A DNA stretch of 35,237 nucleotides from Terriglobales bacterium (GTDB lineage Bacteria > Acidobacteriota > Terriglobia > Terriglobales > Acidobacteriaceae), in NCBI GenBank assembly GCA_035624455.1, contig DASPRM010000122.1, positions 1-35,237 on the forward strand, read 5' to 3'. The notes beneath the pieces were generated by a model that was not told the DNA's origin, searched no databases, and saw only the letters and a list, made by a program, of their open reading frames with translations. The stretch's first letter is position 1. Every line of letters begins with the position of its first letter. A program made the translations under genes and the position numbers. Shown here in pieces: positions 14,801-34,345 of the stretch.

Positions 14801-14925
14801 AAAAATTCAGTGCCGCGCTAATGTGAGAACTCACGATGCCTTCTGTCAAGTGTCTCTCATCTAACTGCCGCGCGATTGGTGCATAAGATGTTGTTCCGCA
14901 ATCTCGTGTGGAAACGGTGCTCCTG

Positions 14926-14969
14926 TGGGAACAAACGTCTCGTCCGTTCAGGCGCAGCCTAGCTCCGCC
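14926..14969. repeat. GGACGTCTCGTCC palindromic repeat, copy 2
   Basis: TGGGAACAAACGTCTCGTCC then GTTCAGGCGCAGCCTAGCTCCGCC matches the element at 4331-4373 in order and sequence, with a few changes that weaken the first hairpin. It sits within the candidate origin region. Confidence 0.6.
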
Positions 14970-18083: not shown

Positions 18084-18140
18084 TTGTCATCTTGAGCGAG
18101 GGCCGGACACACCGGTCCCGGCCCGAGTCGAAAGACCCGG
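18084..18140. repeat. Dispersed repeat, TGTCATCYTGAG...GAGTCGAARGAYC type
   Basis: TTGTCATCTTGAGCGAG and CGAGTCGAAAGACCCGG flank GGGCCGG-acacaccggt-CCCGGCCC, which forms a hairpin. The edges match the element at 2328-2406 but the core is different. Confidence 0.5.
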
Positions 18141-18935: not shown

Positions 18936-19076
18936 GATTGTCATCACGAGGGCGCCGGAGGCGGCGCAGGTGCCCCACTCAAGCCTGCTTTTGGCTTGAG
19001 TGGGAATGAGCCGCTCAAGGAGTTCTCATGATTGTCATCACGAGGCCGCCAACGGCGGCCGAGGGATCTGCAGTTG
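18936..19076. repeat. Two GATTGTCATCACGAG elements flanking a hairpin
   Basis: Element A begins at 18936 (GATTGTCATCACGAG, then GGCGCCGGAGGCGGCGC) and is interrupted or replaced by a CCCACTCAAGCC hairpin (18974-19004). Element B (19029-19076) is complete: ATTGTCATCACGAG, perfect hairpin GGCCGCC-aac-GGCGGCC (19044-19060), then GAGGGATCTGCAGTTG. The same edges occur at 26171-26217 and 34296-34345. Confidence 0.65.
18974..19004. repeat. CTTTTGGC-loop hairpin repeat, copy 2 (perfect 12-bp stem)
   Basis: CCCACTCAAGCC (18974-18985), loop TGCTTTT, then GGCTTGAGTGGG (18993-19004) is a perfect 12-bp stem. It resembles the hairpins near 8095, 22191 and 23566 in stem ends (CCCAC/GTGGG), loop and position between genes. 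The lack of a U-tract argues against a simple terminator. Confidence 0.65.
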
Positions 19077-19144
19077 AAAATCGGCTAAGAGCTGGCCATA
19101 GAGCAACCGAATCATTGGCCTTTGCTCGCTTTCGCCTCGCTCCC

Positions 19145-22042
19145 CTACTTCGCCCTCGCCGCCGTAGCCTTCACCGGATTGCCCTCATAATCAACGGCTG
19201 CAACCGTGCCGAGGTCCAGCTTCTTCAACTCGGGTTCGATCTTGGCGCGGTCACCCACCGCCACGATCACCATCGACTCCGGCACCAGCCATGTTTGCGC
19301 TACTTTCTGCACATCGGCCGTAGTAACGGCGTCGATTTTGGCAGGCAACGTTTGGTAATAATCGAGTGGCAGATCATAAACAAACAGCTGGCCCACTGTG
19401 GCTGCCATCACCGTCGAAGTCTCGAACAGTGCCGGCAACGAGAGTGCTATCGCCCCTTTGGCCATAGCCAATTCCTCTGCACTGATCGGCGCTTCGCGAA
19501 TTCCCTCGATCTCGTTGAAGATCTCCTTCACCGCCGGAGCAGTTACATCCGTTCGGATGCTTCCCCCTGACACGAAGTGCCCGACCGCACGGCGATAGGC
19601 GAACACAGAAAATCCTCCATACGTGTACCCGTGCTTTTCACGGATGTTCATGTTGATGCGGCTGGAGAACAATCCTCCCAGTGCCATGTTCATGACCTCC
19701 AGCGGCACGTAGTCGGGGTTGGACCGGGCCACTGACAGCGTGACAATGCGCAACTCCGTCTGCGGAGCATCGGGCTTATCGACTACAAAGATGCTCCTCT
19801 GCAATGTGTTCTTTACCGTCACCGGCTGGTGCTTGGCGCCGCTGCTCTTCCAACCGCCGAAATACTTGGTTGCTAGAGCACGCGCCTGCTCCTGGGTGAG
19901 ATCTCCGGTAATCACCAGCGCCGAATTAGCCGGCGTATATTGCGATTGCCAGAACTTCACCATCTCGTCGCGCGTGATCGCTTTGTTTGACTCCTCGGTA
20001 CCAAGCTCAACGTATCCGTACGGATTCCCAGGCCCATACAGCAGGTGATACATAACCCGCCGCGCCGTCAGGGAAGGCTCATCCTTCTGCTGAATGACGG
20101 AGGTTACGCGCCGTGAGCGCAAGCGTTCGATTTCCTTCGAATCGAAAGCAGGATCGAGTGCGACATCCGAAAACAGCTCAAAGGCCGCGTCCGCATTCTT
20201 GGTCAGGGAACGGATGGTGACAGACGTCGAGTCCACGCTCGGTACCGTACCGATGGTGGCTCCAATCTGGTCGGCATCCTCGGCGATCTTCAGCGCCGGA
20301 CGCTTCTTCGTGCCCTCATCCAGCATCGCCGCGGTGAACGATGCCAGTCCCGGTTTGTCTGGCGGATTTGCTTCGCTCCCGGCCAGGACCACAAGATTCG
20401 CAGAAACGATGGGCAGACTGTGACGCTCCACCAGCATCACGGTGAGCCCATTCGGAAGCGTGAAACTCTCAGGTGTGGGCAGGGTGAGCTTCGATAGCGG
20501 ACCGGGCTTAGGTGGGTTGGCACGCCACGGCTCCTTGGGAGAGTTGCTCGCCACAACTGGTCCGCCCTGCGATTCTTTTTCCTCCTGCTCGGCCGGCGTT
20601 TTGGGAACGTCGTTGACCACCTTCTTTCCCCGCACCCCGTAAACCACCACGCGAGCGTTGGGCTTCAATTCTTCGCTGGCAATCTCATGGACACTCGCAG
20701 CCGTAGCCTGGTTGTAGCGTTCAAGGTCTTTGGGCAGGTATCCGGGATCGCCGAGATAATGGTTGTACTGGTTCAAGCGGTCGGCCACTCCGCCGAAGCC
20801 TCCCAGCCGCTCGAGCTGATGAATCATCTGGGCTTCGGTCGTGTTGCGGGCGCGTTCCAGTTCCGCTTGCGTCGGCCCGTTGGCGCGCAGATTTTCAATC
20901 TCTTCGTTGATAGCCTTTTCCAGCTCTTCCGGCTTCACCCCCGGCTTTGCCGTAGCCTGGATTTCAAACACCGAGCCCAGAATTAGGGAGCTGTTCGAGG
21001 CCTGCACGTCCTGGGCGATCTCCTTCTCATAAACCAGCTTCTTATACAGACGGCTGGATTTTCCTCCCCCGAGAATGCGGGCCAGCAGATCAGCTTCGGC
21101 ATCGCCGGGCTTGAAAATAGGCGTGCCCAGCCAGGCCATGTACACCCGAGGTAATTCGACCTGATCCGTGACCGTCACGCGGCGCTCGGAGGTAATTGGT
21201 GGCGTGGTCGCCTGGATTTTCGGAACCGGCGGACCTGCAGGGATCGAACCAAAATACTTCTCCACCAACGCCTTGGTCTGCGCCTTATCGAAGTCACCCA
21301 CGATGGCGAGACTGCAGTTGTTCGGAGAGTAGTACTGCTTGAAGAATTCGCGGATGTCATTTATACGTGCCGCTTCAATGTCAGCATGCGAGCCCATCAC
21401 GTAGGCGTAATACGGATGACCCTTGGGGAACAGCTGATGGTAGACCTCCTCCTCGGCCAGGCCGTAGGGTGCGCCCTCAATGCTCTGGCGACGTTCGTTG
21501 CGAACCACGTCCCGCTGATTGGCCAGCTTCTCGCGATCCACGGTGTCGAGCAGGTAGCCCATGCGGTCGCTCTCCAGCCACAGCGCCAGTTCCAGTTGAT
21601 TCGAGGGCAACGTCTCAAAATAATTCGTGCGGTCAAATTCAGTCGTGCCGTTGATGTCGCTTGCCCCTGCGCCTTCCAGGTAGCGGAAGTGAGCTTTGGC
21701 ACCCACGTTCTTCGAACCTTCGAACATCATGTGTTCGTACAGATGAGCGAATCCCGTGCGGCCCGGCCGTTCGTTGGCAGGCCCCACGTGATACCAAAGA
21801 TTCACGGCGACCAGCGGCAGCCGGTGATCCTCTGAAAGGATCACGTCCAGGCCATTCTTAAGCTTGTATTTTTCGTATGGAATTGTGGGCAGCGCACTAT
21901 CGGTCTTTACCTTCGTGGCCACCTGAACCGCCGGCTTCGCTGCAGCCTTGGACGTCGCGCCTTGTGACCAGCCAAAGCTGGAGAAAACGGGCAGTGCTAT
22001 GAGGACATACAGATACGAGCGCAGTAACTTCTTGGCAGGCAT
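19145..22042 (-). CDS. Two-domain M16 zinc metallopeptidase (pitrilysin family), exported
   Basis: A 965-residue protein with a signal peptide (LYVLIALPVFSSFGWS) and an Ala/Lys-rich spacer, so it is probably periplasmic or outer-membrane-associated. The first M16 half has HLYEH (100-104; zinc His100 and His104, catalytic Glu103) and the distal Glu in RNERR (Glu183). A Pro/Glu/Lys-rich linker (about 490-530) leads to a second M16 half (from LPTPESFTLPNGLTV) where the usual HxxEH region reads ASFTAAMLDEGT, so it has no zinc site. Tandem active/inactive halves form the usual M16 clamshell. Peptide or small protein degradation outside the cytosol is likely, but the substrate is unknown. The start at ATG 22042 has TAGGAG about 8 nt upstream. 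Confidence 0.95.
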   Translation of the reverse strand: MPAKKLLRSYLYVLIALPVFSSFGWSQGATSKAAAKPAVQVATKVKTDSALPTIPYEKYKLKNGLDVILSEDHRLPLVAVNLWYHVGPANERPGRTGFAHLYEHMMFEGSKNVGAKAHFRYLEGAGASDINGTTEFDRTNYFETLPSNQLELALWLESDRMGYLLDTVDREKLANQRDVVRNERRQSIEGAPYGLAEEEVYHQLFPKGHPYYAYVMGSHADIEAARINDIREFFKQYYSPNNCSLAIVGDFDKAQTKALVEKYFGSIPAGPPVPKIQATTPPITSERRVTVTDQVELPRVYMAWLGTPIFKPGDAEADLLARILGGGKSSRLYKKLVYEKEIAQDVQASNSSLILGSVFEIQATAKPGVKPEELEKAINEEIENLRANGPTQAELERARNTTEAQMIHQLERLGGFGGVADRLNQYNHYLGDPGYLPKDLERYNQATAASVHEIASEELKPNARVVVYGVRGKKVVNDVPKTPAEQEEKESQGGPVVASNSPKEPWRANPPKPGPLSKLTLPTPESFTLPNGLTVMLVERHSLPIVSANLVVLAGSEANPPDKPGLASFTAAMLDEGTKKRPALKIAEDADQIGATIGTVPSVDSTSVTIRSLTKNADAAFELFSDVALDPAFDSKEIERLRSRRVTSVIQQKDEPSLTARRVMYHLLYGPGNPYGYVELGTEESNKAITRDEMVKFWQSQYTPANSALVITGDLTQEQARALATKYFGGWKSSGAKHQPVTVKNTLQRSIFVVDKPDAPQTELRIVTLSVARSNPDYVPLEVMNMALGGLFSSRINMNIREKHGYTYGGFSVFAYRRAVGHFVSGGSIRTDVTAPAVKEIFNEIEGIREAPISAEELAMAKGAIALSLPALFETSTVMAATVGQLFVYDLPLDYYQTLPAKIDAVTTADVQKVAQTWLVPESMVIVAVGDRAKIEPELKKLDLGTVAAVDYEGNPVKATAARAK

Positions 22043-22346
22043 GACTTATGCTCCTAGGGACATCGTAGGCAGGGATCAAGTTCTAGAACTAGACGCAGCA
22101 AAGCTGGAGATGTTAGCAGAAATGGCGATTCCAGGCGCGAGGGCGGTCTCAGACTACTGTTCTACGCTGCAGAAAGCAGACTTGAGGCTGCCCCACTCTA
22201 ACCGTTCTTTGGCTAGGGTGGGGTAGTTCCACAATTCATCGTGCCCCAGGTTCTCCCCGTGCAGCTCGCGTCTAGTCGACGGATCTTGCGGTCCAAACCC
22301 CCCCGACTCGAGGTTACTTTTCAGCCTTGAACCTCCCGTTTACAGC
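22043..22346. other. Intergenic region between the M16 and M50 genes with hairpin repeat
   Basis: These 304 nt separate two minus-strand genes. They should contain the M16 promoter. The visible feature is the hairpin at 22191-22223. No gene was recognised. Confidence 0.6.
22191..22223. repeat. CTTTTGGC-loop hairpin repeat, copy 3
   Basis: CCCCACTCTAACC, loop GTTCTTT, GGCTAGGGTGGGG folds into a 13-bp stem with two G-T pairs. It shares the CCCCAC...GTGGGG ends and pyrimidine-rich loop with copies at 8095, 18974 and 23566. Confidence 0.6.
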
Positions 22347-23486
22347 TTATCCCCGGTTCTCTGGCGACTCCCCTCGCCGCAGCTTCTTCGACTCCGCCAG
22401 TAGACGAATACTGTGCATCAGGTTCTGAAAGGTTACGATGCCCACCAGCCGTCCCTCATCCACGATAGGAATCAGGCTCAATCCTCGGCGGCTCAGCTTG
22501 CGCAGCCCTGAAGCGAGAGATTCTGTGCGCTGCGCTGCTTCAAACATCCGATTCATCACCGTCTGCACGTAACCATTTCCCTGCGAGCGCAGCTCGGTCA
22601 TGATCTTCTGGCGTGACACCACGCCCACCATGTCGCTGCCGCGGATGACAGGAAAATCATCCTGTAGCGTGTGCACCGCCTTCGCCAGCGCGTCTTCGAG
22701 GGTGTCGGCAGGCGAGAGAGTGGAAAAATCGGTCAGCATCACATCTTCCAGCCGCAGATTCTCCATTACCGACTGGAACAGGATGGAGCGCTCCTCTAGC
22801 TGTGCTGCCAGGAACAGGAAGAAGCCAGCCACCATCAGCCAGGTGTTCCAGATGCCCGCGAAGATGAACACCATCGCAAATAGCTGCCCTACGCTCACTG
22901 CTCGCCGCGTGGCTGGCACCAGGTTATTGTGTCTCGCCAGCCGCCCCCGCAGAATGCGTCCGCCGTCGGTGGGGTAGGCCGGAAGCAGATTGAACGCGCA
23001 GAGGAAGGCATTCACCCACACGAAACTGCGCAGCAGATTGCCGGCGTAGACGAGAGGCGGAGTCCACAACCTGGCGTCCGGCATTAACGCCAGCACGATG
23101 CTCGCGCCGACAAATGCCAGCAGCAAATTCGCCAGCGGTCCGGCCAGCGCAACCGGCAACTCGCCGCTTGGATCCTGCTGTTTTTGGTTGGCGTCATCGA
23201 CCAGCGTGATCCCGCCTATAGGAAGCAGAATCAGCACTCGCGGAGGAAGGTTGCGGCGAATGGCGGCCAGCCCATGCGCCAGCTCGTGCACAACCACTGA
23301 ACCCAAGACGATGGCGGTCAGCGCCAGGCTTCGGGCCACCCCTGAGCTGCGCAGAGTGGCCGCCTCGGTCATCCAGATGAACAGCAGAAGAAACAGGAAA
23401 GAAAGATGCACCCGCACATGGGCCCTTCCTATGTGCCCGATAGGAAAGGACCAGCTGCGCATGATGCCAGAGATCCACGTACCCAT
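22347..23486 (-). CDS. Site-2-type (M50) membrane protease with two CBS domains
   Basis: A 379-residue intramembrane zinc protease related to the SpoIVFB branch of site-2 proteases. Several transmembrane helices occupy about 25-230. VHELAH (66-71) supplies the zinc ligands His67 and His71 with Glu68, and NLLPAYPTDGG (166-176) supplies the third ligand, Asp174 (family pattern NxxPxxPxDGG). A GPLAN/GG motif region lies between (115-120). Two CBS domains follow at about 243-360 (DFSTLSPADTLEDALAKA..., LSLIPIVDEGRLVGIVTF), which bind adenosyl ligands in other proteins and probably gate activity by energy state. ATG 23486 (with AAGG upstream) or ATG at residue 9 could be the start. The substrate is unknown. 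Confidence 0.95.
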   Translation of the reverse strand: MGTWISGIMRSWSFPIGHIGRAHVRVHLSFLFLLLFIWMTEAATLRSSGVARSLALTAIVLGSVVVHELAHGLAAIRRNLPPRVLILLPIGGITLVDDANQKQQDPSGELPVALAGPLANLLLAFVGASIVLALMPDARLWTPPLVYAGNLLRSFVWVNAFLCAFNLLPAYPTDGGRILRGRLARHNNLVPATRRAVSVGQLFAMVFIFAGIWNTWLMVAGFFLFLAAQLEERSILFQSVMENLRLEDVMLTDFSTLSPADTLEDALAKAVHTLQDDFPVIRGSDMVGVVSRQKIMTELRSQGNGYVQTVMNRMFEAAQRTESLASGLRKLSRRGLSLIPIVDEGRLVGIVTFQNLMHSIRLLAESKKLRRGESPENRG

Positions 23487-23565
23487 ACCCTTCTATTTTA
23501 TCGTGCGCTGTTCGCTTATCCCTTATTGGATCTGAATATCGAATCGCATGAGCAATAAAGGGGGG

Positions 23566-23601
23566 CCCCGTCCTTCTGCCGTCTTTTGGCGGAGGGTGGG
23601 A
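23566..23601. repeat. CTTTTGGC-loop hairpin repeat, copy 4
   Basis: CCCCGTCCTTCTGCC, loop GTCTTTT, GGCGGAGGGTGGGA folds imperfectly. It lies between the divergent M50 and rsmD genes, so it is not a terminator for either. Confidence 0.55.
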
Positions 23602-23639
23602 TCGCCTATACACTTTGGCTCAATGCGCTCTTACGACCA

Positions 23640-24212
23640 ATGCGGATAATCGGCGGGAAATATCGCAGCCGGCATCTGAAATCGCTGCCTGGCCTCGATC
23701 TGCGGCCGACCTCCGACCGGCTGCGTGAGACCCTGTTCAACGTCCTTACCGCCGGCAACTCGCAAGCCTTATCGGGCAGCACTTGGCTCGATCTCTACGC
23801 CGGCACTGGAGCGGTGGGGATCGAAGTTCTCAGCCGTGGCGCAGTTCAGGTCGTGTTTGTGGAGGACTCTAAGCAAGCCTCCAATCTGATTCGGCAGAAT
23901 TTGCACGCACTGGGCATTCAGCATGGCTTCGAGATCCTGGATCAGGATGCGACAAAGGCGCTCCGCCGGCTGGAGGCGCGAGGCGCGCACTTTAGCTATT
24001 GTTTTCTAGACCCGCCCTATCGTTTGCGAGAGCAATACGCTCGCACTCTGGAAACGCTGTCGCAGAGTACGCTGATAACAGCTGAGAGCCTCGTGATTGC
24101 CGAACACGAAAAGAAGTTCGACCCCGGTGACGCCTTCGGATCGCTCCAGCGCGTTCGGCGGTTGGTCCAGGGAGACGCCGCGCTGAGCTTCTATCGTCGG
24201 ACTTCAGGCTGA
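23640..24212 (+). CDS. rsmD: 16S rRNA (guanine966-N2)-methyltransferase
   Basis: RsmD methylates G966 of 16S rRNA in the assembling small subunit, using S-adenosylmethionine. ATG 23640 starts MRIIGGKYRSRHLKS, the standard N-terminus; the frame upstream to 23586 encodes no family sequence and overlaps a repeat. The 190-residue protein has the SAM site DLYAGTGAVGIE (51-62) and the catalytic DPPY (124-127). A DUF488 gene follows 43 nt downstream, probably co-transcribed. In many bacteria coaD follows rsmD; it is absent here. Confidence 0.93.
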   Translation: MRIIGGKYRSRHLKSLPGLDLRPTSDRLRETLFNVLTAGNSQALSGSTWLDLYAGTGAVGIEVLSRGAVQVVFVEDSKQASNLIRQNLHALGIQHGFEILDQDATKALRRLEARGAHFSYCFLDPPYRLREQYARTLETLSQSTLITAESLVIAEHEKKFDPGDAFGSLQRVRRLVQGDAALSFYRRTSG

Positions 24213-24255
24213 ACTCGCGCTCACAAAGTCAGAATTGCCGAGTCCTCTTCTTCTT

Positions 24256-24786
24256 ATGGCCACGATCTACACCATTGGGCATTCCACGCGAATTCTGGAG
24301 GATCTGATCGCCGCACTGGGTGCTCATGGTATTCAGACTCTGGTAGACATTCGGGCTTTCCCTATGTCTCGCCGGCTCCCGCACTTCAACCGCGAATCAC
24401 TCGCCCAGGCGCTCCCCGCCGCCGGAATTGAGTACGCCTGGGAAAAGCGGTTGGGAGGGCGCCGCAAGAAAATTATGTCAGTCTCTCCGAATATGGCTCT
24501 GCGTAGCGACAGCTTTCGCAATTACGCCGACTACATGTTGACGCCTGATTTTCGCCAGGCGATCGACGACGTGATTTCCCGCGCCCAGCATGACCGTGTC
24601 GCCATCATGTGTGCGGAGCGGCTGTGGTTCCGCTGTCACCGCATGCTGGTATCGGATTGGCTGGTCGTGCACGGGCATACGGTGCTTCACATCGACGGCA
24701 CTGGTCCAACCAAACCGCATCGGCTTACGGCGGAAGCCCGTTTGGAAGGCGATCAGCTCATGTATAGCGAAAGCTCCCTGTTCTGA
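24256..24786 (+). CDS. DUF488 family protein
   Basis: A 176-residue member of the DUF488 family, small soluble proteins of unknown function sometimes placed near nucleotide or DNA-repair genes. ATG 24256 begins MATIYTIGHSTR, the conserved opening; a TTG start 21 nt upstream is less likely. Family motifs present: TIGHS (6-10), LVDIRAFPMSRRLPHFN (29-45) and MCAERLWFRCHRML (118-131), with Cys119 and Cys127 in the conserved C-A-E...C-H-R pattern. No transmembrane segment. It follows rsmD closely. Confidence 0.9.
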   Translation: MATIYTIGHSTRILEDLIAALGAHGIQTLVDIRAFPMSRRLPHFNRESLAQALPAAGIEYAWEKRLGGRRKKIMSVSPNMALRSDSFRNYADYMLTPDFRQAIDDVISRAQHDRVAIMCAERLWFRCHRMLVSDWLVVHGHTVLHIDGTGPTKPHRLTAEARLEGDQLMYSESSLF

Positions 24787-24985
24787 CGAGCTGAGATCGA
24801 GCCAACACTTCCCAAGTTGAGCGCTGAGCTGCAACAATCCGCCGAGCAGGATTCGGAAAAGATTTCCATGCAAATTATCGGATCGTCCAAGTTTGCGCAT
24901 GGTTCCAACGCCACCATGGGTTACGATATAGCGCGCCCAAAATCAAGCTTCGCCGTTGCGTTTAGGACAGGATCGGCCCGCCCAG

Positions 24986-26125
24986 ATGAAGGATTTCTAC
25001 ATTCGCGATGCCGCGCAGCAGGAGAACAAGACCATTACTTCCTGCTTCGTAGTTTGTTCCAAGCAGATCAAACCTAAAAAGTCCGGGGACCTTTTTATCG
25101 CCCTCACACTTGCTGACCGGACGGGTCAGCTCGAAGCCAAGGTCTGGGACAACGTACAGCTCTACCTTGATTGCTTTGAGCAGGACGATTTCATCAAGGT
25201 CAAAGGCCTGTTGAATAAGTACAACAACCACTTTCAGCTGACGATCCATAAACTCCGCCGGCTGGATGAAAACGAGATTGACTACGCCGACTACCTGCCC
25301 AAGACCGATAAGGACGTCGAGCAGTTGTGGGCTACGCTGGTGGATTATGTCGGCGGCTTCCGCAACCAGAATCTGAAAGCGCTGCTCCAAGCCTTCATCA
25401 ACGACCCCGAGATCGCTCAGGCCTACAAGACTGCGCCTGCGGCCAAGACGCTCCATCACGCCTACATCGGCGGACTTCTGGTGCACGTGGTCTCGCTGTT
25501 TCAGTTGTGCGAGCTTGCCGCCCGAAATTATCCCCAGATCGATCGCGATCTCCTGCTCACCGGCGCCTTCCTCCACGACATTGGCAAGCTGCACGAGCTC
25601 TCCTATGCCCGTTCGTTCTCCTACACCACGCGCGGCCAGCTCCTGGGGCACATGATCATCGAACTGGAGATGCTGCAGTCCAAGCTCGAGCAGCTTCCCG
25701 GTTTCCCCCCTGAGCTCAAGACCTTGATCGAGCACATGATCATCAGCCACCATGGTCAGTACGAATTTGGATCCCCCAAGCTGCCGATGTTCCCCGAGGC
25801 GCTCATGCTCCATTACCTGGATGACCTGGATTCGAAAATGGAGAGCATGCGGGCGCAGTTCGAGCGCCAGGCTCTTAACGAGGACGCCTGGGCAGGCTAC
25901 AACTCAGCTTTGGGACGACCACTGCTCGATCCCGCAAAGTTTCTCAATCCCAAGCCCGCGGATAATGGCAAGCATTCGGAAGTCGCGCAAACCGAGGCGC
26001 CGCAAGCCTGCCCTCAGGCCAAGGACAAGGACAACGACAACGGCACGGGGAAGGGCGCCAGGCAAACTGCTGAGCCAGGCACGCAGGAAGCTTGCGCAGC
26101 TGCGCCGGAAAATGCGACCAAGTAA
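24986..26125 (+). CDS. YhaM-like OB-fold/HD-domain phosphohydrolase or exoribonuclease
   Basis: A 379-residue protein with the arrangement of the YhaM 3'-to-5' exoribonuclease family: N-terminal OB fold (about 1-100, KPKKSGDLFIALTLADRTGQ region for nucleic acid binding) and HD domain (about 150-310). HD metal ligands are visible in TLHHAYIGGLLVHV (155-168), FLHDIGKLHE (196-205, His197-Asp198), GQLLGHM and SHHGQYEFGSPK, ending in EALMLHYLDDLDSK. After about 330, a low-complexity Lys/Asp/Asn/Gly/Glu tail appears to be linker-like. ATG 24986 is chosen over the upstream TTG 24956 because MKDFYIRDA is the usual family opening. Ribosome-binding site weak. Role in RNA turnover is inferred from the family only. 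Confidence 0.88.
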   Translation: MKDFYIRDAAQQENKTITSCFVVCSKQIKPKKSGDLFIALTLADRTGQLEAKVWDNVQLYLDCFEQDDFIKVKGLLNKYNNHFQLTIHKLRRLDENEIDYADYLPKTDKDVEQLWATLVDYVGGFRNQNLKALLQAFINDPEIAQAYKTAPAAKTLHHAYIGGLLVHVVSLFQLCELAARNYPQIDRDLLLTGAFLHDIGKLHELSYARSFSYTTRGQLLGHMIIELEMLQSKLEQLPGFPPELKTLIEHMIISHHGQYEFGSPKLPMFPEALMLHYLDDLDSKMESMRAQFERQALNEDAWAGYNSALGRPLLDPAKFLNPKPADNGKHSEVAQTEAPQACPQAKDKDNDNGTGKGARQTAEPGTQEACAAAPENATK

Positions 26126-26170
26126 TAGTTGACGCTGGATGATAGCGATTCCGCACTACGTGAACCTTAG

Positions 26171-26217
26171 TTTGTCGTCACGAGGAGGGCGTCAGCCCGA
26201 CGAGGGATCTGCAGTTG
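26171..26217. repeat. GATTGTCATCACGAG...GGATCTGCAGTT repeat
   Basis: TTTGTCGTCACGAGGA, hairpin GGGC-gtca-GCCC, then CGACGAGGGATCTGCAGTTG. Same edges as 18936-19076 and 34296-34345, with a different core. Confidence 0.6.
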
Positions 26218-26314
26218 GTCTCTTTCAACCTTCAACACCAACATCAGGATTCAAGCAATTGCAGGTGCATAAGTCCCCAAGGGGAAACACCGTCCCTACT
26301 GCTAGACTGTCTCC

Positions 26315-27028: not shown

Positions 27029-27114
27029 AGCCGAAGTCAGCCACCGGCGCACGCCATCGGCTGCATCGGATACAATTCGGTCGGGGAAGTCATTACTATC
27101 CCAATCTGCTGAAA

Positions 27115-28305
27115 ATGCTGCGTTTCTCGACAGCGGGAGAATCTCACGGCGAGGCCCTGATCGCGCTTCTGTCGGGCATCCCGGCCGGGCTGGCCGTTGA
27201 CCTTGCCTTCATTGATCGCGACCTCTGGCGCCGCCAGCAAGGCTACGGCCGCGGCGGACGCATGCGCATCGAGCGCGACTGCGCCCACATTCTCTCCGGT
27301 GTGCGTCATGGGCACACCATCGCCTCTCCGATTGCCATCCTGATCGAAAATCGTGACTGGAAAAACTGGACTGATGCCTTGCCGGTCACGCCTGGAGACC
27401 CCGCTCAACACAAACGCGTCGCTTCTCCGCGTCCCGGCCACGCCGACCTTGCGGGTGCGCTCAAATATAACTTCCCCGAAGCCCGCTATGTCCTGGAGCG
27501 TGCCTCGGCGCGGGAATCAGCCGCCCGGGTCGCGGTGGGTGCGATTGCCAAACTCTTTTTACGCGAATTGGGCATCGAAGTACTTAGTCACGTTGTCGCC
27601 GTGGGGAATGCCATTCTCGCCAATGACGTCGGCTGGGAGGAGATTCGCGCTCTATACGGCAAAGACGAGGTGTTGCTTAACTGCGCCGACCCCGATGCCG
27701 AGCAGCGGATGAAATCCGAGGTCGACGCGGTTCTGAAGACCGGTGATTCCGTAGGCGGCGTCTTTGAGGTGCGCGCCCACAACGTTCCCCCCGGTCTCGG
27801 CACTTACATCAATTGGGATGAGCGGCTCGATGCCCTCCTGGCGGCCGCGGTCATGTCGCTACAGGCGGTAAAAGCAGTGGAGATCGGCTCTGGAGTGACC
27901 GCGGCTGCTTCCCCCGGCTCCGCCGTGCATGATGAAATAGGTTACAGAGGCGGAACGGAAGAGAACGCGGGCGGAAATTTCACCGGCTTCACCCGCAGCT
28001 CCAATCGCGCCGGCGGAATTGAAGGCGGCGTTTCCAATGGCGAGGACATCATCGTTCGCGGCTACCTCAAGCCGATTTCCACGCTGCGACGGCCACTGGC
28101 CTCGGTGGATTTCGCCACTCGGGAACCGGTAAAAGCGGCTTACGAGCGCTCTGACGTGTGTGTTGTTCCGGCGGCGGGCGTTGGGGCTGAGGCCATGGTC
28201 GCCCTCGTGCTGGCGCGCTGCGCCTTGGAAAAATTCGGCGGCGATTCCATGCAAGAAACCTTGCGTAATTTCGAAGCCTACAAGCAACAGCTGCGAAAAT
28301 TCTGA
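27115..28305 (+). CDS. aroC: Chorismate synthase
   Basis: AroC converts 5-enolpyruvylshikimate-3-phosphate to chorismate, the last shikimate step, with reduced FMN as cofactor. ATG 27115 starts MLRFSTAGESHGEALIALL, with GESHG (8-12) containing the conserved His11; the upstream open frame (to 26902) has no family sequence and overlaps the HAD gene. GYGRGGRMRIERD (42-54), GVRHGHTIASPI and the C-terminal RSSNRAGGIEGGVSNGEDI block (about 295-315) are family signatures. 396 residues is normal. The stop is immediately followed by the def ATG (0-nt gap), so these two are an operon. Confidence 0.97.
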   Translation: MLRFSTAGESHGEALIALLSGIPAGLAVDLAFIDRDLWRRQQGYGRGGRMRIERDCAHILSGVRHGHTIASPIAILIENRDWKNWTDALPVTPGDPAQHKRVASPRPGHADLAGALKYNFPEARYVLERASARESAARVAVGAIAKLFLRELGIEVLSHVVAVGNAILANDVGWEEIRALYGKDEVLLNCADPDAEQRMKSEVDAVLKTGDSVGGVFEVRAHNVPPGLGTYINWDERLDALLAAAVMSLQAVKAVEIGSGVTAAASPGSAVHDEIGYRGGTEENAGGNFTGFTRSSNRAGGIEGGVSNGEDIIVRGYLKPISTLRRPLASVDFATREPVKAAYERSDVCVVPAAGVGAEAMVALVLARCALEKFGGDSMQETLRNFEAYKQQLRKF

Positions 28306-28818
28306 ATGATTCACCCCATCGTTAAATTTGGCGATCCGGTTCTGGAAAAACCCGCGGCTCCGGTTACCGTTTTCGACGGCGATCTTAAGAAGCTGATTGA
28401 AGAGATGTTCGAGTCCATGTACGCCGCGCACGGCGTCGGCCTCGCGGCTCCGCAGATCGGTATCTCCAAGCGTGTTGCCGTAATCGATGTGACTTTCAAG
28501 GAAGACCCCGAGGCCAGGCTGGTGCTCGTGAACCCGGAAATCATTCACACCGAAGGCCGCATAACCCAGAACGAGGGCTGCCTCAGCATTCCTGAGTTTC
28601 GCGAGAACGTGACTCGCGCACGCTCCTGCACCGTGCGCGCCCAGGATATTACAGGCCAGTGGTTCGAGCGCACGGGAGAAGACCTTCTGGCGCGTGCCCT
28701 GCAGCACGAAACCGATCATCTCAACGGCAAGCTCTATATCCATCGCATCAGCGCGCTGAAACGCGATCTGATCCGGCGCAAGATTCGCAAATTGGAAAAA
28801 GCCGGCGAGTGGAAATAG
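28306..28818 (+). CDS. def: Peptide deformylase
   Basis: Peptide deformylase removes the formyl group from N-terminal fMet of new proteins as they leave the ribosome. The 170-residue protein has all three motifs: GVGLAAPQIG (43-52), EGCLSIPE (90-97, metal ligand Cys92) and QHETDHLNG (133-141, metal ligands His134 and His138, catalytic Glu135). Type 1 length and sequence. It begins right after the aroC stop and is 46 nt ahead of fmt, the enzyme that adds the formyl group. The def-fmt pair is a common gene neighbourhood. Confidence 0.97.
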   Translation: MIHPIVKFGDPVLEKPAAPVTVFDGDLKKLIEEMFESMYAAHGVGLAAPQIGISKRVAVIDVTFKEDPEARLVLVNPEIIHTEGRITQNEGCLSIPEFRENVTRARSCTVRAQDITGQWFERTGEDLLARALQHETDHLNGKLYIHRISALKRDLIRRKIRKLEKAGEWK

Positions 28819-28864
28819 GCTCCATTTCCGGGTTCATCTTCCTCGCGGCCATCTACAATCAACC

Positions 28865-29842
28865 ATGATGGATCTAGTCTTCTGCGGCACCCCGCAATTC
28901 GCCGTACCTACGCTGCGCGCGCTTCTGGACCACGGTTTCAGCATTCGTCTGGTGGTCACGCAGCCAGACCGTCCCAGCGGCCGTGGGTTGGAGCTCTCGT
29001 CTTCGCCGGTGAAACAGCTTGCACTCGAGCGGGGCCTTCCAATCACGCAGCCGGACAGAATCAAGAACAATCAGGAATTTCGCGCCCAGCTCGACTCCAT
29101 CCAGCCTGCGGCGATTGTGGTGGTGGGCTACGGCCGCATCATCCCGCAATGGATGATCGACCTCCCTCCACTCGGCAATATCAATCTGCATGCTTCGCTC
29201 CTGCCTAAATACCGGGGAGCCGCGCCCATCCAATGGGCAATCGCTATGGGCGAGACCGTCGCCGGTGTAACCACCATGCGCATCGATGCAGGTCTTGATA
29301 CGGGCGACATTTTGCTTCAACGCCAATTGCCCATCGCACCCGAAGACACCGCCGTCACACTCGCTCCGCGTCTCGCCGAAATCGGAGCCGAGCTGATGGT
29401 CGAAACCCTGCCTGCCCTGGAGCAGGGCAAAATCCAACCACATCCGCAGGATCACTCGCAATCCAGTCTGGCGCCGATCCTGAAAAAGGAAGACGGACTC
29501 ATTGATTTCCAGATGACGGCAACCGAGATCTGCAATCGCCTGCGCGGATTCCAGCCCTGGCCGGGTATTTTCACCATCTTTCGCGGTAAGCATCTCACCA
29601 TCACGGCAGCAAGGCCATTAGCAAAGGCGTCAGTCGAACTCGAGCCCGCACTGCTCAAGCTCGAATCAGACCGTCTGCTGGTGGGATGTGGAGGATCAAC
29701 AGCGATAGAACTGCTTGAGGTTCAGCCCGAAGGCAAGAAGCGCATGTCGATTAAGGATTTCATCAATGGTTATCGTCCCAAACCAGCCGAGAAATTGGGT
29801 CAGCCGGCGACAGAATCTGCGCCCGCAAAAACCCAAGCCTGA
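28865..29842 (+). CDS. fmt: Methionyl-tRNA formyltransferase
   Basis: Fmt formylates Met-tRNAfMet with 10-formyltetrahydrofolate for translation initiation. The 325-residue protein opens MMDLVFCGTPQFAVPTLRALL and has the active-site block NLHASLLPKYRGAAPIQWAI with the conserved Asn-His pair. MRIDAGLDTGDILL follows with the catalytic Asp. The C-terminal tRNA-binding domain starts near GFQPWPGIFTIF. Start could be either of two adjacent ATGs (28865, 28868); no strong ribosome-binding site. A Lys/Ala/Thr-rich tail ends the protein. It sits between def and rsmB. Confidence 0.97.
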   Translation: MMDLVFCGTPQFAVPTLRALLDHGFSIRLVVTQPDRPSGRGLELSSSPVKQLALERGLPITQPDRIKNNQEFRAQLDSIQPAAIVVVGYGRIIPQWMIDLPPLGNINLHASLLPKYRGAAPIQWAIAMGETVAGVTTMRIDAGLDTGDILLQRQLPIAPEDTAVTLAPRLAEIGAELMVETLPALEQGKIQPHPQDHSQSSLAPILKKEDGLIDFQMTATEICNRLRGFQPWPGIFTIFRGKHLTITAARPLAKASVELEPALLKLESDRLLVGCGGSTAIELLEVQPEGKKRMSIKDFINGYRPKPAEKLGQPATESAPAKTQA

Positions 29843-29906
29843 ATTCTGACATGCCACACGCTCAGCGCCTCTCTTACACGGCGGATCGCAGATCGGGTCC
29901 TCAAAA

Positions 29907-31277
29907 TTGTTAAGCCCGGCCCGATCTGCGGCATTCGATATCCTGCTCAAGGTTGAGCAGCAGAAGGCCTACGCGTCCGAGCTGCTGAATTCTGCGCGTC
30001 TCGCCCACCTCTCTTCTGCGGACCGCGCCCTATGCACAGAGCTGGTGATGGGAGTGCTCCGCTGGCAGTCCCGGCTCGACCACACATTGGCTGATCTGGT
30101 CTCCAAGCCGGTCGCGAAACTCGACCCCGAGGTGTTGCTGGCGTTGCGCCTGGCTGTGTATCAGATCATGTTTTTACAACGCATTCCTGCCCACGCTTCG
30201 GTGAACGATAGCGTGGAGCTGGTTAAGCGGAAACGTAAGCGCTCAGCTGCGCCATTCGTAAATGCCGTTCTGCGCAAGCTCGCAGCCAACCCGATCTCCG
30301 CCGAACCAGTGCTGGCTCCTGGGCCAACGACCGTCCCCGATCTTGTTCAAATTTACGCTCATCCTCTCTGGCTGGTCGACCGCTGGGCGGTCCGCTATGG
30401 CTTGGAACGAGCTGCCGCCATCTGCGCCTACGATCAGAAGGTGCCGCCCACATCTATTCGATTGCTCGATCCTTCGGCTGAGCGTGAGCTGATGGGGGCG
30501 GGCATTGAGATTTCGCCGGGGCTTCTGATGCAATCCGCACGTCGCATCGTCGCCGGCGATGTCACCTCGACCACGGCTTTCCGTGACGGTCGCATCACGA
30601 TACAGGATGAAGGCTCACAGCTCGTCGCTCACGTGGTCGCGGCCGGAAATCGCATCCTGGATTGCTGCGCCGCGCCCGGAGGCAAGACAATTCTGCTGGC
30701 TGCCCGCAACCCCAACGCTCAAGTGATCGCCGCCGAGTTGCATCCCCAGCGGGCCTCCGCCATGCAGGCGCGAGTAGCCCATTTGTCTTCCTCGCTCGCA
30801 GTCCGCGACCGCATCCGAATCGTTGCGGCCGATGTTACCCGGCTGCCTTTTGCAACTTCTTTCGACAGCATTCTTGCAGACGTCCCATGTTCTGGCACCG
30901 GCACGCTGGCCCGCCATCCTGAAATAAAGTGGCGTCTCACCCTCGACGATCTTGCCGATCTCCACTCCCGCCAAATTTCCATTCTCACCTCGGCACTGGA
31001 TCGGCTTTCGCCCGGCGGGTGCCTGCTCTACTGCAGCTGTTCCCTGGAGCCGGAAGAGAATGAGGAAGTCGTGCGTGAGGTCCTGCGGCAGAAACCGGAC
31101 TTCCGGCTTGTCGATTGCAAGCCAGAGCTGACGCGCCTGCGCCAATCCGGTGAGCTGATCTGGCCTGACCTCGACTCGCTGCTCGATGGCTCCTCTGTAA
31201 GAACATTTCCCGGAATCCATCCCTGCGATGGCTTTTTCGCCGCAATGATAATGATGCCAAGTGTCCGCCAGCGCTAA
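29907..31277 (+). CDS. rsmB: 16S rRNA (cytosine967-C5)-methyltransferase RsmB
   Basis: RsmB methylates C967 of 16S rRNA. The 456-residue protein has an N-terminal NusB-like RNA-binding domain (about 1-150, ILLKVEQQKAYASELLN and ILADVV-type helices) and the methyltransferase domain: SAM site ILDCCAAPGGKT (about 250-261), motif IV DVPCSGTGTLARHP (about 325-338) and the nucleophile motif LLYCSCSLEPEEN (about 372-384), where Cys replaces the usual Thr-Cys pair by Ser-Cys. Start is TTG 29907; no in-frame ATG or GTG lies in the short upstream gap. It is 64 nt after fmt and probably belongs to the aroC-def-fmt-rsmB run. Confidence 0.94.
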   Translation: MLSPARSAAFDILLKVEQQKAYASELLNSARLAHLSSADRALCTELVMGVLRWQSRLDHTLADLVSKPVAKLDPEVLLALRLAVYQIMFLQRIPAHASVNDSVELVKRKRKRSAAPFVNAVLRKLAANPISAEPVLAPGPTTVPDLVQIYAHPLWLVDRWAVRYGLERAAAICAYDQKVPPTSIRLLDPSAERELMGAGIEISPGLLMQSARRIVAGDVTSTTAFRDGRITIQDEGSQLVAHVVAAGNRILDCCAAPGGKTILLAARNPNAQVIAAELHPQRASAMQARVAHLSSSLAVRDRIRIVAADVTRLPFATSFDSILADVPCSGTGTLARHPEIKWRLTLDDLADLHSRQISILTSALDRLSPGGCLLYCSCSLEPEENEEVVREVLRQKPDFRLVDCKPELTRLRQSGELIWPDLDSLLDGSSVRTFPGIHPCDGFFAAMIMMPSVRQR

Positions 31278-31287
31278 ACCACAGACG

Positions 31288-31320
31288 ATCATGCTGAGCG
31301 AAGCGACGCATCTGTGCTTT
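31288..31320. repeat. Degenerate copy of the TGAGCGAAGCGA...GGATCT repeat
   Basis: ATCATGCTGAGCGAAGCGAC then GCATCTGTGCTTT resembles the ends of the 2328-2406 type element joined without the hairpin core. It lies in the 145-nt gap between rsmB and the PASTA gene, which are convergent. Confidence 0.4.
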
Positions 31321-31422
31321 TATCCGGCGCCGACATTCTGTTTCCCTCGCCGCCTGAACTCGAGCAAGCCCAAACAAAAGGGCGCCAAACCGACCGACTA
31401 CCCGAGGAAGAAATCCATTGCC

Positions 31423-32166
31423 TCAGCGACTGACTTCCAGGGTGACACTCGAGCCGGCAAAAACCTTCTGTCCTGCCGGCGGGTATTGCTTGATCACCAT
31501 GGTAGGAGCCGCAATCGGCTCGGGAGCAGGCTCGGGAAAGATTTGCTGCCCGATTGCGTCCGCACCACTCACCTTACCCAGTTTCAGTCCCCCGGCCTCG
31601 ATCGCGGCCGCCGCTTCCACCAGCGGACGCCCCACGAAATTCGGCATCACCAGCGCCTCCGGCAGCTCTGGAGCGCCGACCAGCAGGCTTACTTTGGGCG
31701 ACGCTACCTGCGCGTTCGCCGCTGGACTCTGTGCTGCTATTTCGTCCGGCGAAATGCCGGGCAAAGCGATCACCGCTACAGTTCCCAATTCCAGCCCGCG
31801 CTGCCTTAGATTGAGCTCCGCCGCGCGCATGCTTTCTCCCACCACATCGGGGATAGTAGACCGTTGCGGGCCCAGACTCACTGCTAGCTGTACCCGCCAG
31901 CCCCGCCGCACTTTGCTTCCTGCTGGCGGTACCTGCGACATAATCTGTCCCTCCGCCACATCTGGACTGTAGAATTTCCCCTCCATCTGCAGCAGTAATC
32001 CTTTCGCTTGCGCCGCGCGTTCTGCTTCCTTGGAAGCCATGCGCACGAAGTTGGGCACGCTGACTTCTCCACCGTGGATGGCCAGGCGCATCGCCGTAAG
32101 TGCGGAGAGCACGGCTACCGAGATCAGCACAAGCCCCAGCGGGACAATCTGCAGTAATCGTCGCAT
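31423..32166 (-). CDS. Membrane-anchored protein with three PASTA domains
   Basis: A 247-residue protein with one N-terminal transmembrane helix (about 6-26, PLGLVLISVAVLSALTA) and three extracytoplasmic PASTA domains: about 35-97 (VPNFVRMASKEAERAAQAKG...), 104-163 (IPDVVGESMRAAELNLRQRG...) and 170-246 (MPNFVGRPLVEAAAAIEAGG...). PASTA domains in Ser/Thr kinases and PBPs bind cell wall fragments. There is no kinase or transpeptidase domain here, so it is a stand-alone sensor or scaffold of unknown partner. No Shine-Dalgarno is visible upstream of ATG 32166 on its own strand. It is convergent with rsmB and divergent from selA. Confidence 0.9.
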   Translation of the reverse strand: MRRLLQIVPLGLVLISVAVLSALTAMRLAIHGGEVSVPNFVRMASKEAERAAQAKGLLLQMEGKFYSPDVAEGQIMSQVPPAGSKVRRGWRVQLAVSLGPQRSTIPDVVGESMRAAELNLRQRGLELGTVAVIALPGISPDEIAAQSPAANAQVASPKVSLLVGAPELPEALVMPNFVGRPLVEAAAAIEAGGLKLGKVSGADAIGQQIFPEPAPEPIAAPTMVIKQYPPAGQKVFAGSSVTLEVSR

Positions 32167-32285
32167 CGGAGGAGAAGCCGATTGTATCGTGCCAGCATGA
32201 AAGCGGTTGGTGATTGGCTGAGGGGCATGATGAAATACTGTTTAGGCACAGCAGGATTTTTTCAGCTGCTGCAGCGAACTGGAGA

Positions 32286-33716
32286 ATGAACACGAATCTT
32301 ACGGAGCAGGCTGCTCTCTTTCGCAAACTCCCGTCGGTGGATGAACTGCTGCGCCACCCGGAGATAGCGACTCTGGTCGCCCGTGAGGGCCACGCCGCGG
32401 TAACCGAGGCCTCCCGGACAGTGCTCGCCAAGTTGCGCGAGGAGATCTCGGCTGGCCGCCTCGATCAGGCTACGGTTGACCTTGCACTCACGGGTGTAGC
32501 TGCAGCCGTCGAACGCCAGTTACGGCAGTCGCTTCGTCAGTCTCTTCGCCCCGTGATCAATGCCACCGGGGTGATTCTGCACACCAATCTTGGACGTGCG
32601 CCATTGTCGCAAGCTGCGCTGGAAAACATCCAGCAGACAGCGAGAACCTACTCCAATCTTGAATTCAACCTCGAGGCGGGAGAGCGTGGCAAGCGCGACG
32701 TCCACGCAGATCGACTGTTTGCGCGCTTGCTGGCGGCAGGAAGCACTGCCGCACCCATCTCCACCATTGTGGTCAACAACAATGCCGCTGCCGTATTTCT
32801 TGCCCTTAACACGCTGGCCGACGGATTCGAGGTCATTGTTTCGCGGGGTGAGTTGGTTGAGATCGGAGGCTCCTTTCGCATTCCCGACGTGATGGCAAAA
32901 TCGCACGCCGTCCTGAAAGAAGTCGGGACCACGAATCGTACGCGCATTTCGGATTATGAGCGCGCCATCGGTGAACGCACTCGCCTGCTTCTGCGTGTCC
33001 ACCGATCAAATTTTCAGATCACTGGCTTCACCGAACAGCCCGCCCTGGAAGAGCTGGTTGCGCTGGGACGCAGCCATGGCATCCCCGTGATGGAGGACCT
33101 GGGCAGTGGCGCGCTGTTTGACCTTCGCTCCGTCGGAATCCAGGGCGAGCCTGGCGTAACCGAGAGTCTTCAGGCAGGCATCGACATTCTGACTTATAGC
33201 GGTGACAAGCTGCTCGGCGGGCCACAGGCCGGAATCATCAGCGGCCGGAAGGATCTGGTCGCGCGCATCCGCTCTAATCCCCTGTTCCGCGCTTTGCGTG
33301 TCGACAAGCTTACGTACGCCGCCCTGGAAGCCACCCTGCTCGCATACCTGCGCCAGGATTACGATGCCATCCCCGCCATTCGCCTGATGCGTGTGCCGCT
33401 GGCGGATATCGCCCGTCGAATCGAAGTCGTCCTCACTCTGCTCAAACCTTCCGCGCCCAGCCTGACGGCGGAAACGATCGATGGGGAGTCGGTGGTCGGT
33501 GGCGGCGCCGCGCCCGCTTCCACTCTGCCCACCCGCCTTCTGGCTATTGCTTTGACGAGCATGAGCGCGGGGGATCTGGCATCACGTCTGCGCCTCAATG
33601 ATCCACCCATCATTGCCCGGGTTGACGAAGGTCGCCTGCTCATCGATCTGCGCACAGTTTTCCCCGAGCAGGACCAAGCCCTCTCTCAAGCACTCATTGA
33701 CATCGCGAGAACTTGA
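32286..33716 (+). CDS. selA: L-seryl-tRNA(Sec) selenium transferase
   Basis: SelA is a PLP enzyme that converts Ser-tRNASec to selenocysteinyl-tRNASec using selenophosphate, so the organism probably makes selenoproteins. The 476-residue protein (ATG 32286; upstream frame to 32214 has no family sequence) has PSVDELL near the N-terminus, VINATGVILHTNLGRAPLS (90-108), the Gly-rich turn GELVEIGGSFRIPDVMA (188-204), MEDLGSG (269-275) and the PLP lysine in SGDKLLGGPQAGI (305-317, Lys308). The C-terminus TVFPEQDQ fits. The ribosome-binding site GGAG is very close to the ATG. No selB, selC tRNA or selD is in the window. Confidence 0.95.
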   Translation: MNTNLTEQAALFRKLPSVDELLRHPEIATLVAREGHAAVTEASRTVLAKLREEISAGRLDQATVDLALTGVAAAVERQLRQSLRQSLRPVINATGVILHTNLGRAPLSQAALENIQQTARTYSNLEFNLEAGERGKRDVHADRLFARLLAAGSTAAPISTIVVNNNAAAVFLALNTLADGFEVIVSRGELVEIGGSFRIPDVMAKSHAVLKEVGTTNRTRISDYERAIGERTRLLLRVHRSNFQITGFTEQPALEELVALGRSHGIPVMEDLGSGALFDLRSVGIQGEPGVTESLQAGIDILTYSGDKLLGGPQAGIISGRKDLVARIRSNPLFRALRVDKLTYAALEATLLAYLRQDYDAIPAIRLMRVPLADIARRIEVVLTLLKPSAPSLTAETIDGESVVGGGAAPASTLPTRLLAIALTSMSAGDLASRLRLNDPPIIARVDEGRLLIDLRTVFPEQDQALSQALIDIART

Positions 33717-33718
33717 GC

Positions 33719-33802
33719 CGTTTTGGGCGTGAGGGGAAGTCCCCAGATCCGGGGTCCCCGACGAGACCATTATCCGCTCCTTGGGGTGTGAGGCGAAATC
33801 CC
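33719..33802. repeat. Imperfect direct repeat after selA
   Basis: TTGGGCGTGAGGGGAAGTCC near 33722-33743 and TTGGGGTGTGAGGCGAAATC near 33780-33802 match with a 1-nt shift and a few changes. A CCCC-agatcc-GGGG hairpin lies between. It may be another worn interspersed element. Confidence 0.3.
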
Positions 33803-33829
33803 GAGCGCAACGAAGAATTCTTTTTGCTG

Positions 33830-33863
33830 CCGCAAACGAAAAGGGCTGCTTTTCGCAGCCCTT
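33830..33863 (-). terminator. Intrinsic terminator of the His/Asp/Trp-rich protein gene
   Basis: On the minus strand, AAGGGCTGC, loop GAAAA, GCAGCCCTT (33841-33849 with 33855-33863) is a perfect 9-bp stem followed by TTCGTTT. It lies about 25 nt after the stop of the upstream gene. Confidence 0.8.
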
Positions 33864-33886
33864 AGTCGCGCGATCAGAGAAGCTAC

Positions 33887-34165
33887 TTACCGCGGCCAGA
33901 CGTGATAGCGTTGCCAGTACTCCTGCCGCCAACGCCAATCGTCACGATCATGGTGACGCCAGTAATCGCGGTCATGGTCGTAGTTGTAACGCCGCCATTC
34001 CTCGCGCTCCTGGCGATGCCGCCAATCGTCTCGGTCATACACACGATGACGATGGTCCCAATCGTGATCATGATCCTCGGCAAATGCCGCGCCACTTAAA
34101 CTGAGCATCACGCCCAGCAGACCCAGTACTGCCCACCTCCTGATCGACTTGAATTTCGTAATCAT
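33887..34165 (-). CDS. Secreted His/Asp/Trp/Arg-rich small protein
   Basis: A 92-residue protein. ATG 34165 is chosen because GGAGGG lies 5 nt upstream; a TTG 12 nt further up has no better site. Residues 1-25 are a signal peptide (WAVLGLLGVMLSLSGAAFA, cut after AFA). The mature 67 residues are almost all His, Asp, Arg, Trp, Tyr and Glu, in repeats like DHDHDWDHRHR, YDRDDWRHRQE and RRYNYDHDRDYW. The pattern may bind metals or nucleic acids, or aid adhesion, but no family was recognised. The gene has its own terminator on the 3' side. Confidence 0.75.
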   Translation of the reverse strand: MITKFKSIRRWAVLGLLGVMLSLSGAAFAEDHDHDWDHRHRVYDRDDWRHRQEREEWRRYNYDHDRDYWRHHDRDDWRWRQEYWQRYHVWPR

Positions 34166-34295
34166 CGGGCCCTCCAATCCTCGACCCTGCGGCGCATCCG
34201 CCGCTTTATGTCAATACAAACCCCAAACTGGGCAGATAGTTTCCGCGCTGCAAATCACTGATCGCAGGGGGAATGGGGAGTCTTACACTTTCAAT

Positions 34296-34345
34296 GATTG
34301 TCATCACGAGTAAGCGAATAGCGAGCGCGGGATCTGCAGTTCGAA
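34296..34345. repeat. GATTGTCATCACGAG...GGATCTGCAGTT repeat
   Basis: GATTGTCATCACGAG, core TAAGCGAATAGCGAGCG, then CGGGATCTGCAGTTCG. Same edges as the copies at 18936-19076 and 26171-26217, with a different core that does not form a perfect hairpin. Confidence 0.6.

Follow-up and report, generated by a model that had tools for sequence, protein, structure and literature searches.

GTCAT units: covarying hairpin repeats in an acidobacterial genome that are probably non-autonomous REP-type mobile elements

The closest described relatives of the repeat studied here are the repetitive extragenic palindromes (REPs) of the CGTC class. In the sections of Di Nocera et al. (2013; PMC3733652) that bear on this class, the repeats end in a CGTC tag, which is often TGTC and has further variants such as CCTC, and show A-T residues in the first two stem pairs, stems of 8-9 bp, loops of 4-5 nt and a short unpaired tail, mostly CCA. 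The neisserial dRS3 and the rickettsial RPE-4 and RPE-6 repeats belong to the class, for which these sections give no associated transposase gene; how such repeats multiply without a REP-associated tyrosine transposase (RAYT) was left open there in 2013. The dRS3 repeat is also described as the target of a filamentous-phage integrase. From the Acidobacteriota, the same sections report TIRYT terminal repeats in K. versatilis, T. saanensis, A. capsulatum and G. mallensis (PMC3733652). Here we describe a hairpin repeat, which we call the GTCAT unit, that is present in a stretch of 35,237 nt (contig C122, DASPRM010000122.1; hereafter the window) of a Terriglobales bacterium (GCA_035624455.1). This genome (G000) comprises 4.39 Mb in 166 contigs, and its copies are called own copies.

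We regard the GTCAT units as probable non-autonomous mobile DNA hairpins of the REP type or its paired form (REP doublet forming hairpins, REPIN), which an enzyme acting in trans would move. The data demonstrate their structure and covariation, their copy number, their mostly intergenic dispersal and the dimers that they form in related genomes. The comparison with known families draws on two sets of own copies, namely 30 aligned copies that came from a pattern fixing GTC and the first two stem-pair bases, and the best 82 of 95 matches to a covariance model (E up to 0.00052). Each unit opens with a TGTC tag and a basal stem whose first pairs are A-T and T-A; a GA/GA block, an apical hairpin of variable sequence and the tail CTGCAGTT complete it. 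As far as the CGTC class is described in the sections cited, several traits are shared. First, the tag is TGTC in 30/30 copies (GTC being held by the pattern) and CGTC in several of the 82; we take it to be unpaired, as in the CGTC REPs, although an outer helix possible in RNA can pair part of it. In addition, the first two stem pairs are A-T in 30/30 copies, these bases again being fixed by the pattern. Finally, the units are mostly intergenic, form dimers, differ in stem and loop between copies and have no RAYT attached at the 86 RAYT loci inspected. Other traits differ. Instead of a stem of 8-9 bp there is an interrupted basal stem, a GA/GA block and an apical stem often of 5-6 pairs, and the loop varies from 3 nt upwards instead of measuring 4-5 nt. 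The tail is CTGCAGTT in own units and CTGG in most copies listed from G143, G179 and G189, against CCA. Close GTCAT dimers have their tails facing each other; for CGTC dimers the HH arrangement is said to prevail, which is a difference if H is the tag end. Because the tag, the A-T base and the lack of an attached RAYT agree while stem length and tail do not, we treat the GTCAT unit as a CGTC-REP-like variant and not as a filed member. The layout is the known one of the CGTC/TGTC-tagged REP superfamily, from which the longer two-part hairpin and the different tail set the GTCAT units apart.

The units also resemble GTAG REPs and REPINs with their RAYTs in size, in their mostly intergenic placement and in that the element that moves is likely to be an inverted pair. 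They differ in having no GTAG/GTGG foot in the edges of the 30 copies and no RAYT gene flanked by GTCAT units at 86 loci. The REPIN trait of an inverted pair dispersed as a unit, which is also that of a miniature inverted-repeat transposable element (MITE), was found in G024 and G143 and is rare in the own genome. TIRYT repeats, although from the same phylum, are described as sitting at a transposase gene, whereas the hairpins that flank own RAYTs have GGTGCC or other edges and not those of GTCAT units. Repeats of the type GTCATCCTGAGCG...CGAAGGATC occur in many bacteria. They have the same frame, GTCATnnYGAR ... YGARnnATC, are present in other genomes of the phylum and differ from own units in basal pairs and tails; a longer form of this frame was seen by eye in the window. 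A literature search by the letters of the repeat or by spurious peptides encoded in it returned no description of the GTCAT family among the matches listed.

Structure, copy number and placement of the units

The pattern GTCATNNNGAGN{5,30}GGGATCT matched the genome exactly 35 times, 22 times on the plus and 13 times on the minus strand, whereas the same two-edge pattern read backwards gave no match. The view of the initial annotation, made from the window alone, that the recurrence is not due to chance was thereby confirmed. From 30 of the 35 copies we built a covariance model (R1) with 10 base pairs, and a genome search with it gave 80 matches at E<0.01 and 93 in all at E<=1.

The 30 aligned copies share the frame TTGTCATCACGAG - apical hairpin - CGAGGGATCTGCAGTT. 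Within the edges TTGTCATCACGAG and GAGGGATCTGCAGTT, 19 columns are invariant and 8 more are kept at >=90%, and the core varies, which agrees with the initial annotation. The basal stem starts with A-U, U-A and C-G in all 30 copies. Further inward follow mostly an A/G mismatch, a C-G pair (29/30), GA facing GA and a G-C pair (30/30). Tandem sheared G-A pairs are stable where GA faces GA and each strand places it between a pyrimidine and a purine. The innermost five apical pairs are variable, and two-sided changes occur in all five. Over the whole structure, 31 cells were changed on both sides, compared with 10.8 in shuffles, and none of 500 shuffles reached 31. The covariation score was 0.199 against a maximum of 0.038 with slid partners, and the paired fraction was 89.5% against 25-46% in slid controls. 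The number of pairs with a two-sided change (5 vs 4.0, reached by 111/500 shuffles) does not stand out alone.

Pairs were also counted over a wider set of 117 elements, from which 4 duplicates among 39 matches had been excluded; 21 elements unreadable by the anchors were left out, so that 96 remained. In 61% of the 96, four or more apical pairs followed one another without a break, compared with 6.6% when the cores were shuffled, and in 48/96 the longest run was at least 5 pairs, often 5-6 contiguous. The description of the core as usually a GC hairpin therefore holds for the genome-wide set, but within the window it is uneven. The 19030 unit folded better than its shuffles (z -2.68 as RNA, -2.07 as DNA), whereas the 26170 unit (z -0.71 and -0.80) and the 34296 unit (z -0.46 and +0.66) did not. 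Covariation across copies is the stronger evidence for the hairpin than the folding of single copies. Basal pair 1 was C-G in 66/96 and T-A in 24/96 elements, and basal pair 2 was paired in just 34/96 because own copies carry the A/G mismatch there. The pair inside the GA block was G-C in 78/96 and A-T in 8/96. Outside the own genus, TCC...GGA and CCC...GGG are the prevailing basal stems, whose two sides change together from genus to genus. Among 64 readable own copies we counted 48 distinct pairs of 5-nt arms, the commonest occurring six times, and loops differed within one stem type, with lengths of 3 nt and up. Given the constant edges and the varying arms and loops, edges and arms are under different rules. 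The variable apical stem also offers natural data on which hairpin parts are read by sequence and which by shape alone.

The placement of the 82 copies was determined against genes predicted with a simple codon-score caller, which is not a published method. The claim that all copies lie between genes held for 76/82, which were clear of predicted genes, and failed for 6/82, which overlapped an open reading frame (ORF); five of these lay within about 85 nt of the ORF end and one (L019) well inside. Between codirectional genes there were 42/82 copies, 23 on the same and 19 on the opposite strand. Convergent gaps held 20/82 copies in 8.8 kb and divergent gaps 7/82 in 7.3 kb, so that the density per intergenic base was about 2.4 times higher in convergent gaps. 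The remaining 7/82 were at the ends of stretches. This placement fits that of REPs and points to no transcript strand. Copies can also cluster: contig C13 of G000 carries five units at E<0.01 and two weak ones between 4289 and 21359, four of the five inside 6.2 kb, all on one strand and among unremarkable genes, hslU/hslV-like ones (by eye) for example, and forms a local hot spot.

Related genomes, dimers and signs of mobility

The search for relatives returned 40 genomes, none of the own genus. A pattern with free basal pairs matched 9/41 genomes, own included. The wider frame GTCATnnYGAR..YGARnnATCTG matched 35/297 genomes of the phylum, again with own included and with all reversed controls at 0; this figure overstates the true carriers, because many single hits resemble chance matches without a hairpin. 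The top carriers by this frame were G189 (281 copies), G179 (116), G143 (76) and the own genome (40). The CAC...GGG version with the tail GCAGTT was found in two stretches of the genome collection, both from 'Acidobacteria bacterium isolate gp2 AA83', in an exact scan that may leave out own-genome and very near records. This version looks nearly private to the own genome. In AA83 a version with a longer core (L201, 1563-1640) measures about 78 nt; its outer apical stem, GTCGTCC/GGACGAC, is 7 bp long, and the genome has further matches of similar length.

Tail-to-tail dimers with a spacer of 10-18 nt were found in five genomes (G001, G018, G022, G024 and G116, which is AA83). Among the matches listed there were at least 9 such pairs and no head-to-head pair at the same spacing. 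Dimers in other genomes range in length from about 100 to 135 bp. In G024, one two-stem dimer of about 101 bp is present twice, in opposite orientations; the alignment spans TTGTCATT to AATGACAAGG with a score of 161, and the 160-nt flanks score 17 and 13. A dimer duplicated in unrelated flanks is the best sign of mobility in these sequences. We also fetched 9 of the 76 matches in G143 and 8 of the 116 in G179. In G143, 5/9 stretches contained a complete inverted pair, which is about 105-117 bp long where both units are listed; the second unit was damaged or partial in the other 4/9, and 33/36 upstream and 33/36 downstream flank pairs showed no clear similarity. Many dispersed and mostly intergenic copies in both orientations, together with the inverted dimers of relatives, one of them duplicated in dissimilar flanks, uphold the earlier suggestion of a REP- or MITE-like mobile element. 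In G189 (L263-L282), 11/25 full units have a same-strand left edge within 130 nt upstream and 2/25 have one downstream; the upstream edges are often truncated left halves, as judged by eye.

Several observations weigh against mobility of this kind. First, no transposase could be linked to the units (0/86 RAYT loci; other transposase classes not searched). In addition, three G143 stretches (L304, L308 and L311) share their upstream flank and three others (L307, L309 and L310) their downstream flank, and these shared flanks indicate larger repeats or mosaics there. Tail-to-tail pairs are rare in the own genome: one was found among the 82 copies (C77), with 47 nt between its units, and a second has a weak partner (L146, E 0.027) at 43 nt. 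Empty sites, target duplications and polymorphism between strains could not be shown, the long matches to relatives being 63-75% identical; the same-genus pair G189 and G313, at 67-80% identity over four matches of >400 nt, is too divergent for an intergenic empty-site comparison. Finally, the relatives were retrieved by a model built on own copies and therefore lean towards its structure, so that the conservation of GA/GA (80/96 elements) is partly selected for.

If the units are indeed mobile REP-type hairpins, a plausible course is as follows. The unit would become single-stranded during replication and then fold, and an enzyme acting in trans would recognise the tag, the basal stem and the GA/GA block and mobilise it. 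Mobilisation would be most efficient for a tail-to-tail pair (REPIN), and the singletons that prevail in the own genome would be remnants or decayed pairs. Since the apical stem would need pairing alone, its arms could drift by compensating changes, perhaps with the aid of template switching that corrects imperfect palindromes, and the edges would be held by the recognising protein. As a tentative refinement, the units might form an orphan REPIN class in scattered Acidobacteriota, akin to dRS3 and the rickettsial RPEs, that is moved by an as-yet unfound enzyme other than a RAYT. Such an enzyme might read the shape of the hairpin (tag, A-T/T-A base and tandem GA block) and ignore the apical sequence.

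RAYT genes and other explanations

RAYT genes are common in the bacterial family, with representatives in 90/100 genomes sampled and three in the own genome over the NF047646 cut-off, together with fragments. The own genes L039, L041 and L040 (contigs C71, C160 and C81) are each flanked by an inverted pair of a hairpin other than the GTCAT unit (GGGTGCCCCATCCTGAGCG..., GGGTGCCCCACCCTCTAGC... and GGTGGAGCAGGCCTTCAGGCCTGC); the first two have a GGTGCCCCA edge and the third was read by eye. A search for inverted pairs had 33 RAYT loci as input, 13 of which gave no ORF, and 13/20 readable loci showed a pair with a GGTG[CG]CC edge (by eye). GTCAT units on both sides of a RAYT were found at 0/61 loci of the own bacterial family and at 0/25 loci from six GTCAT-carrying genomes of the phylum. 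In this total of 86, L094/L100 and L243/L247 each cover one gene, and some loci end at contig edges. One-sided units stand beside a few RAYTs (L054, L059 and L067, for example), and some pattern matches near RAYTs look spurious (L042, L060). A RAYT as the attached transposase of the GTCAT units is therefore not supported at these loci.

The resident RAYTs (TnpA-REP, HUH tyrosine enzymes) might still mobilise GTCAT units in trans despite carrying other hairpins, but we consider this unlikely. Besides the availability of the enzyme in the own genome, the hairpins that flank RAYTs share the design of the units, a constant edge and a variable paired core, and two of the three own ones have the GGTGCC edge. 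Furthermore, RAYT-type hairpins occur next to the window's left half and, as read by eye, within element 57 (L151). These points are set against the unflanked loci, some of them contig-cut, and against G189, which with 281 copies has just a degenerate RAYT match (E 1e-7). RAYT-like genes are present in G179, G143, G313, G388 and G298. The genus mate of G189, G313, combines 10 copies with two RAYTs above the cut-off. The contrast between these two genomes gives a handle on how the CGTC class spreads, as the missing enzyme can be sought through presence and absence.

The initial annotation had offered a conserved RNA structure as the other possibility. We keep as a rival, with a low probability, a structured RNA element under transcript selection, acting in protection of mRNA 3' ends, as an RNase target or like a small RNA. 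In plus-strand RNA, 2/3 window copies can form an outer helix GAUUGU/GCAGUU through G-U pairs, and the excess in convergent gaps (20 copies in 8.8 kb, against 7 in 7.3 kb of divergent gaps) is modest. The helix was not obtained with minus-strand RNA of the 19030 unit, the sole copy so folded, nor with DNA parameters. By the criterion for an intrinsic terminator, no T run follows the stem in the constant edges on either strand of the 30-copy alignment, and no Rfam family matched the window sequence at the gathering threshold. The occurrence in the phylum (35/297 genomes) is patchy, too. Copies between codirectional genes favour neither strand (23 vs 19), and this, together with the missing Rfam match in the window, argues against the view that the units exist mainly for a function bound to a transcript.

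It is improbable that the units are passive targets, like dRS3, of an integrase or an IS110-type recombinase and spread by recombination instead of their own transposition. The model for this would be dRS3 itself, which belongs to the CGTC class and is described as a phage integrase target, and the longer flanks common to some G143 copies are what recombination or larger repeats would give. However, service as a target does not by itself readily explain a sharp-ended dimer of 101 bp that recurs in unrelated flanks, and the sole IS110-like gene seen (L166:7227-8279, by eye) has no GTCAT unit in its listed flanks. We set this gene aside as a candidate; IS110 was not searched genome-wide. Five stretches in the viral collection match the GTCAT pattern. 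Arms could stay paired through template switching even if selection played no part, but that chance or a mutational by-product (template-switch-corrected imperfect palindromes) accounts for the repeats without any family is scarcely credible, since the edge counts (35 vs 0 reversed) rule out chance as a full account and the constant edges lie outside the palindrome.

Units and neighbouring features in the window

Mapping by sequence match placed three full copies and one left half in the window (Table 1), and the positions first given for them were right to within a few bases.

Table 1. GTCAT units and related hairpins in the window.
Feature	Position	Strand	Sequence and remarks
Complete GTCAT unit	19030-19075	+	TTGTCATCACGAG / 7-bp GC stem, loop AAC / CGAGGGATCTGCAGTT
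Complete GTCAT unit	26170-26216	+	Left edge TTGTCGTCACGAG, with one change
Core of the 26170-26216 unit			GAGGGC GTCA GCCCGA; GGGC/GCCC and a second GA/GA (by eye)
Complete GTCAT unit	34296-34341	+	Weak core stem TAAGCG AAT AGCGAGC; right edge GCGGGATCTGCAGTT
Left half of GTCAT unit	18936-18968	+	GATTGTCATCACGAG GGCGCC GGA GGCGGCGCA; without right edge
RAYT-type hairpin adjoining the left half	18969-19005	+	GGTG CCCCACTCAAGCC ... GGCTTGAGTGGGA
Stem of the 18969-19005 hairpin	18974-18985/18993-19004		12 bp (by eye)
Long-core cousin	2328-2408	+	TTGTCATCCTGAG ... GAGTCGAAGGATCTTGC; edges by eye
Long-core cousin	18084-18137	+	TTGTCATCTTGAGCGAGGGCCGG ... CCGAGTCGAAAGACC; edges by eye

The genes of the window were named by eye. 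The 19030 unit has two minus-strand genes as neighbours, for an M16-like peptidase and a small zinc-finger-like protein. The 26170 unit has genes for an HD-domain-like protein and a HAD-like hydrolase beside it, and the 34296 unit comes after selA. Other genes of the window include gyrA, gyrB, dnaN and dnaA; the gene content and the carrier AA83 both indicate Acidobacteriota. The GGTGCC edge of the hairpin next to the left half is also found on the hairpins flanking two own RAYT genes, and G004 has a stretch that matches window positions 18964-19005 at 95% identity. In two places, window 18936-19005 and element 57 (L151), a RAYT-type hairpin was seen by eye to abut a GTCAT unit or to lie within it, as if one repeat family had inserted into the other. 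A second repeat of the window, 44 nt long, is present at 4330-4373 and 14925-14968 with 89% identity (GTGGGAAC..ACGTCTCGTCCGTTCAGGCG).

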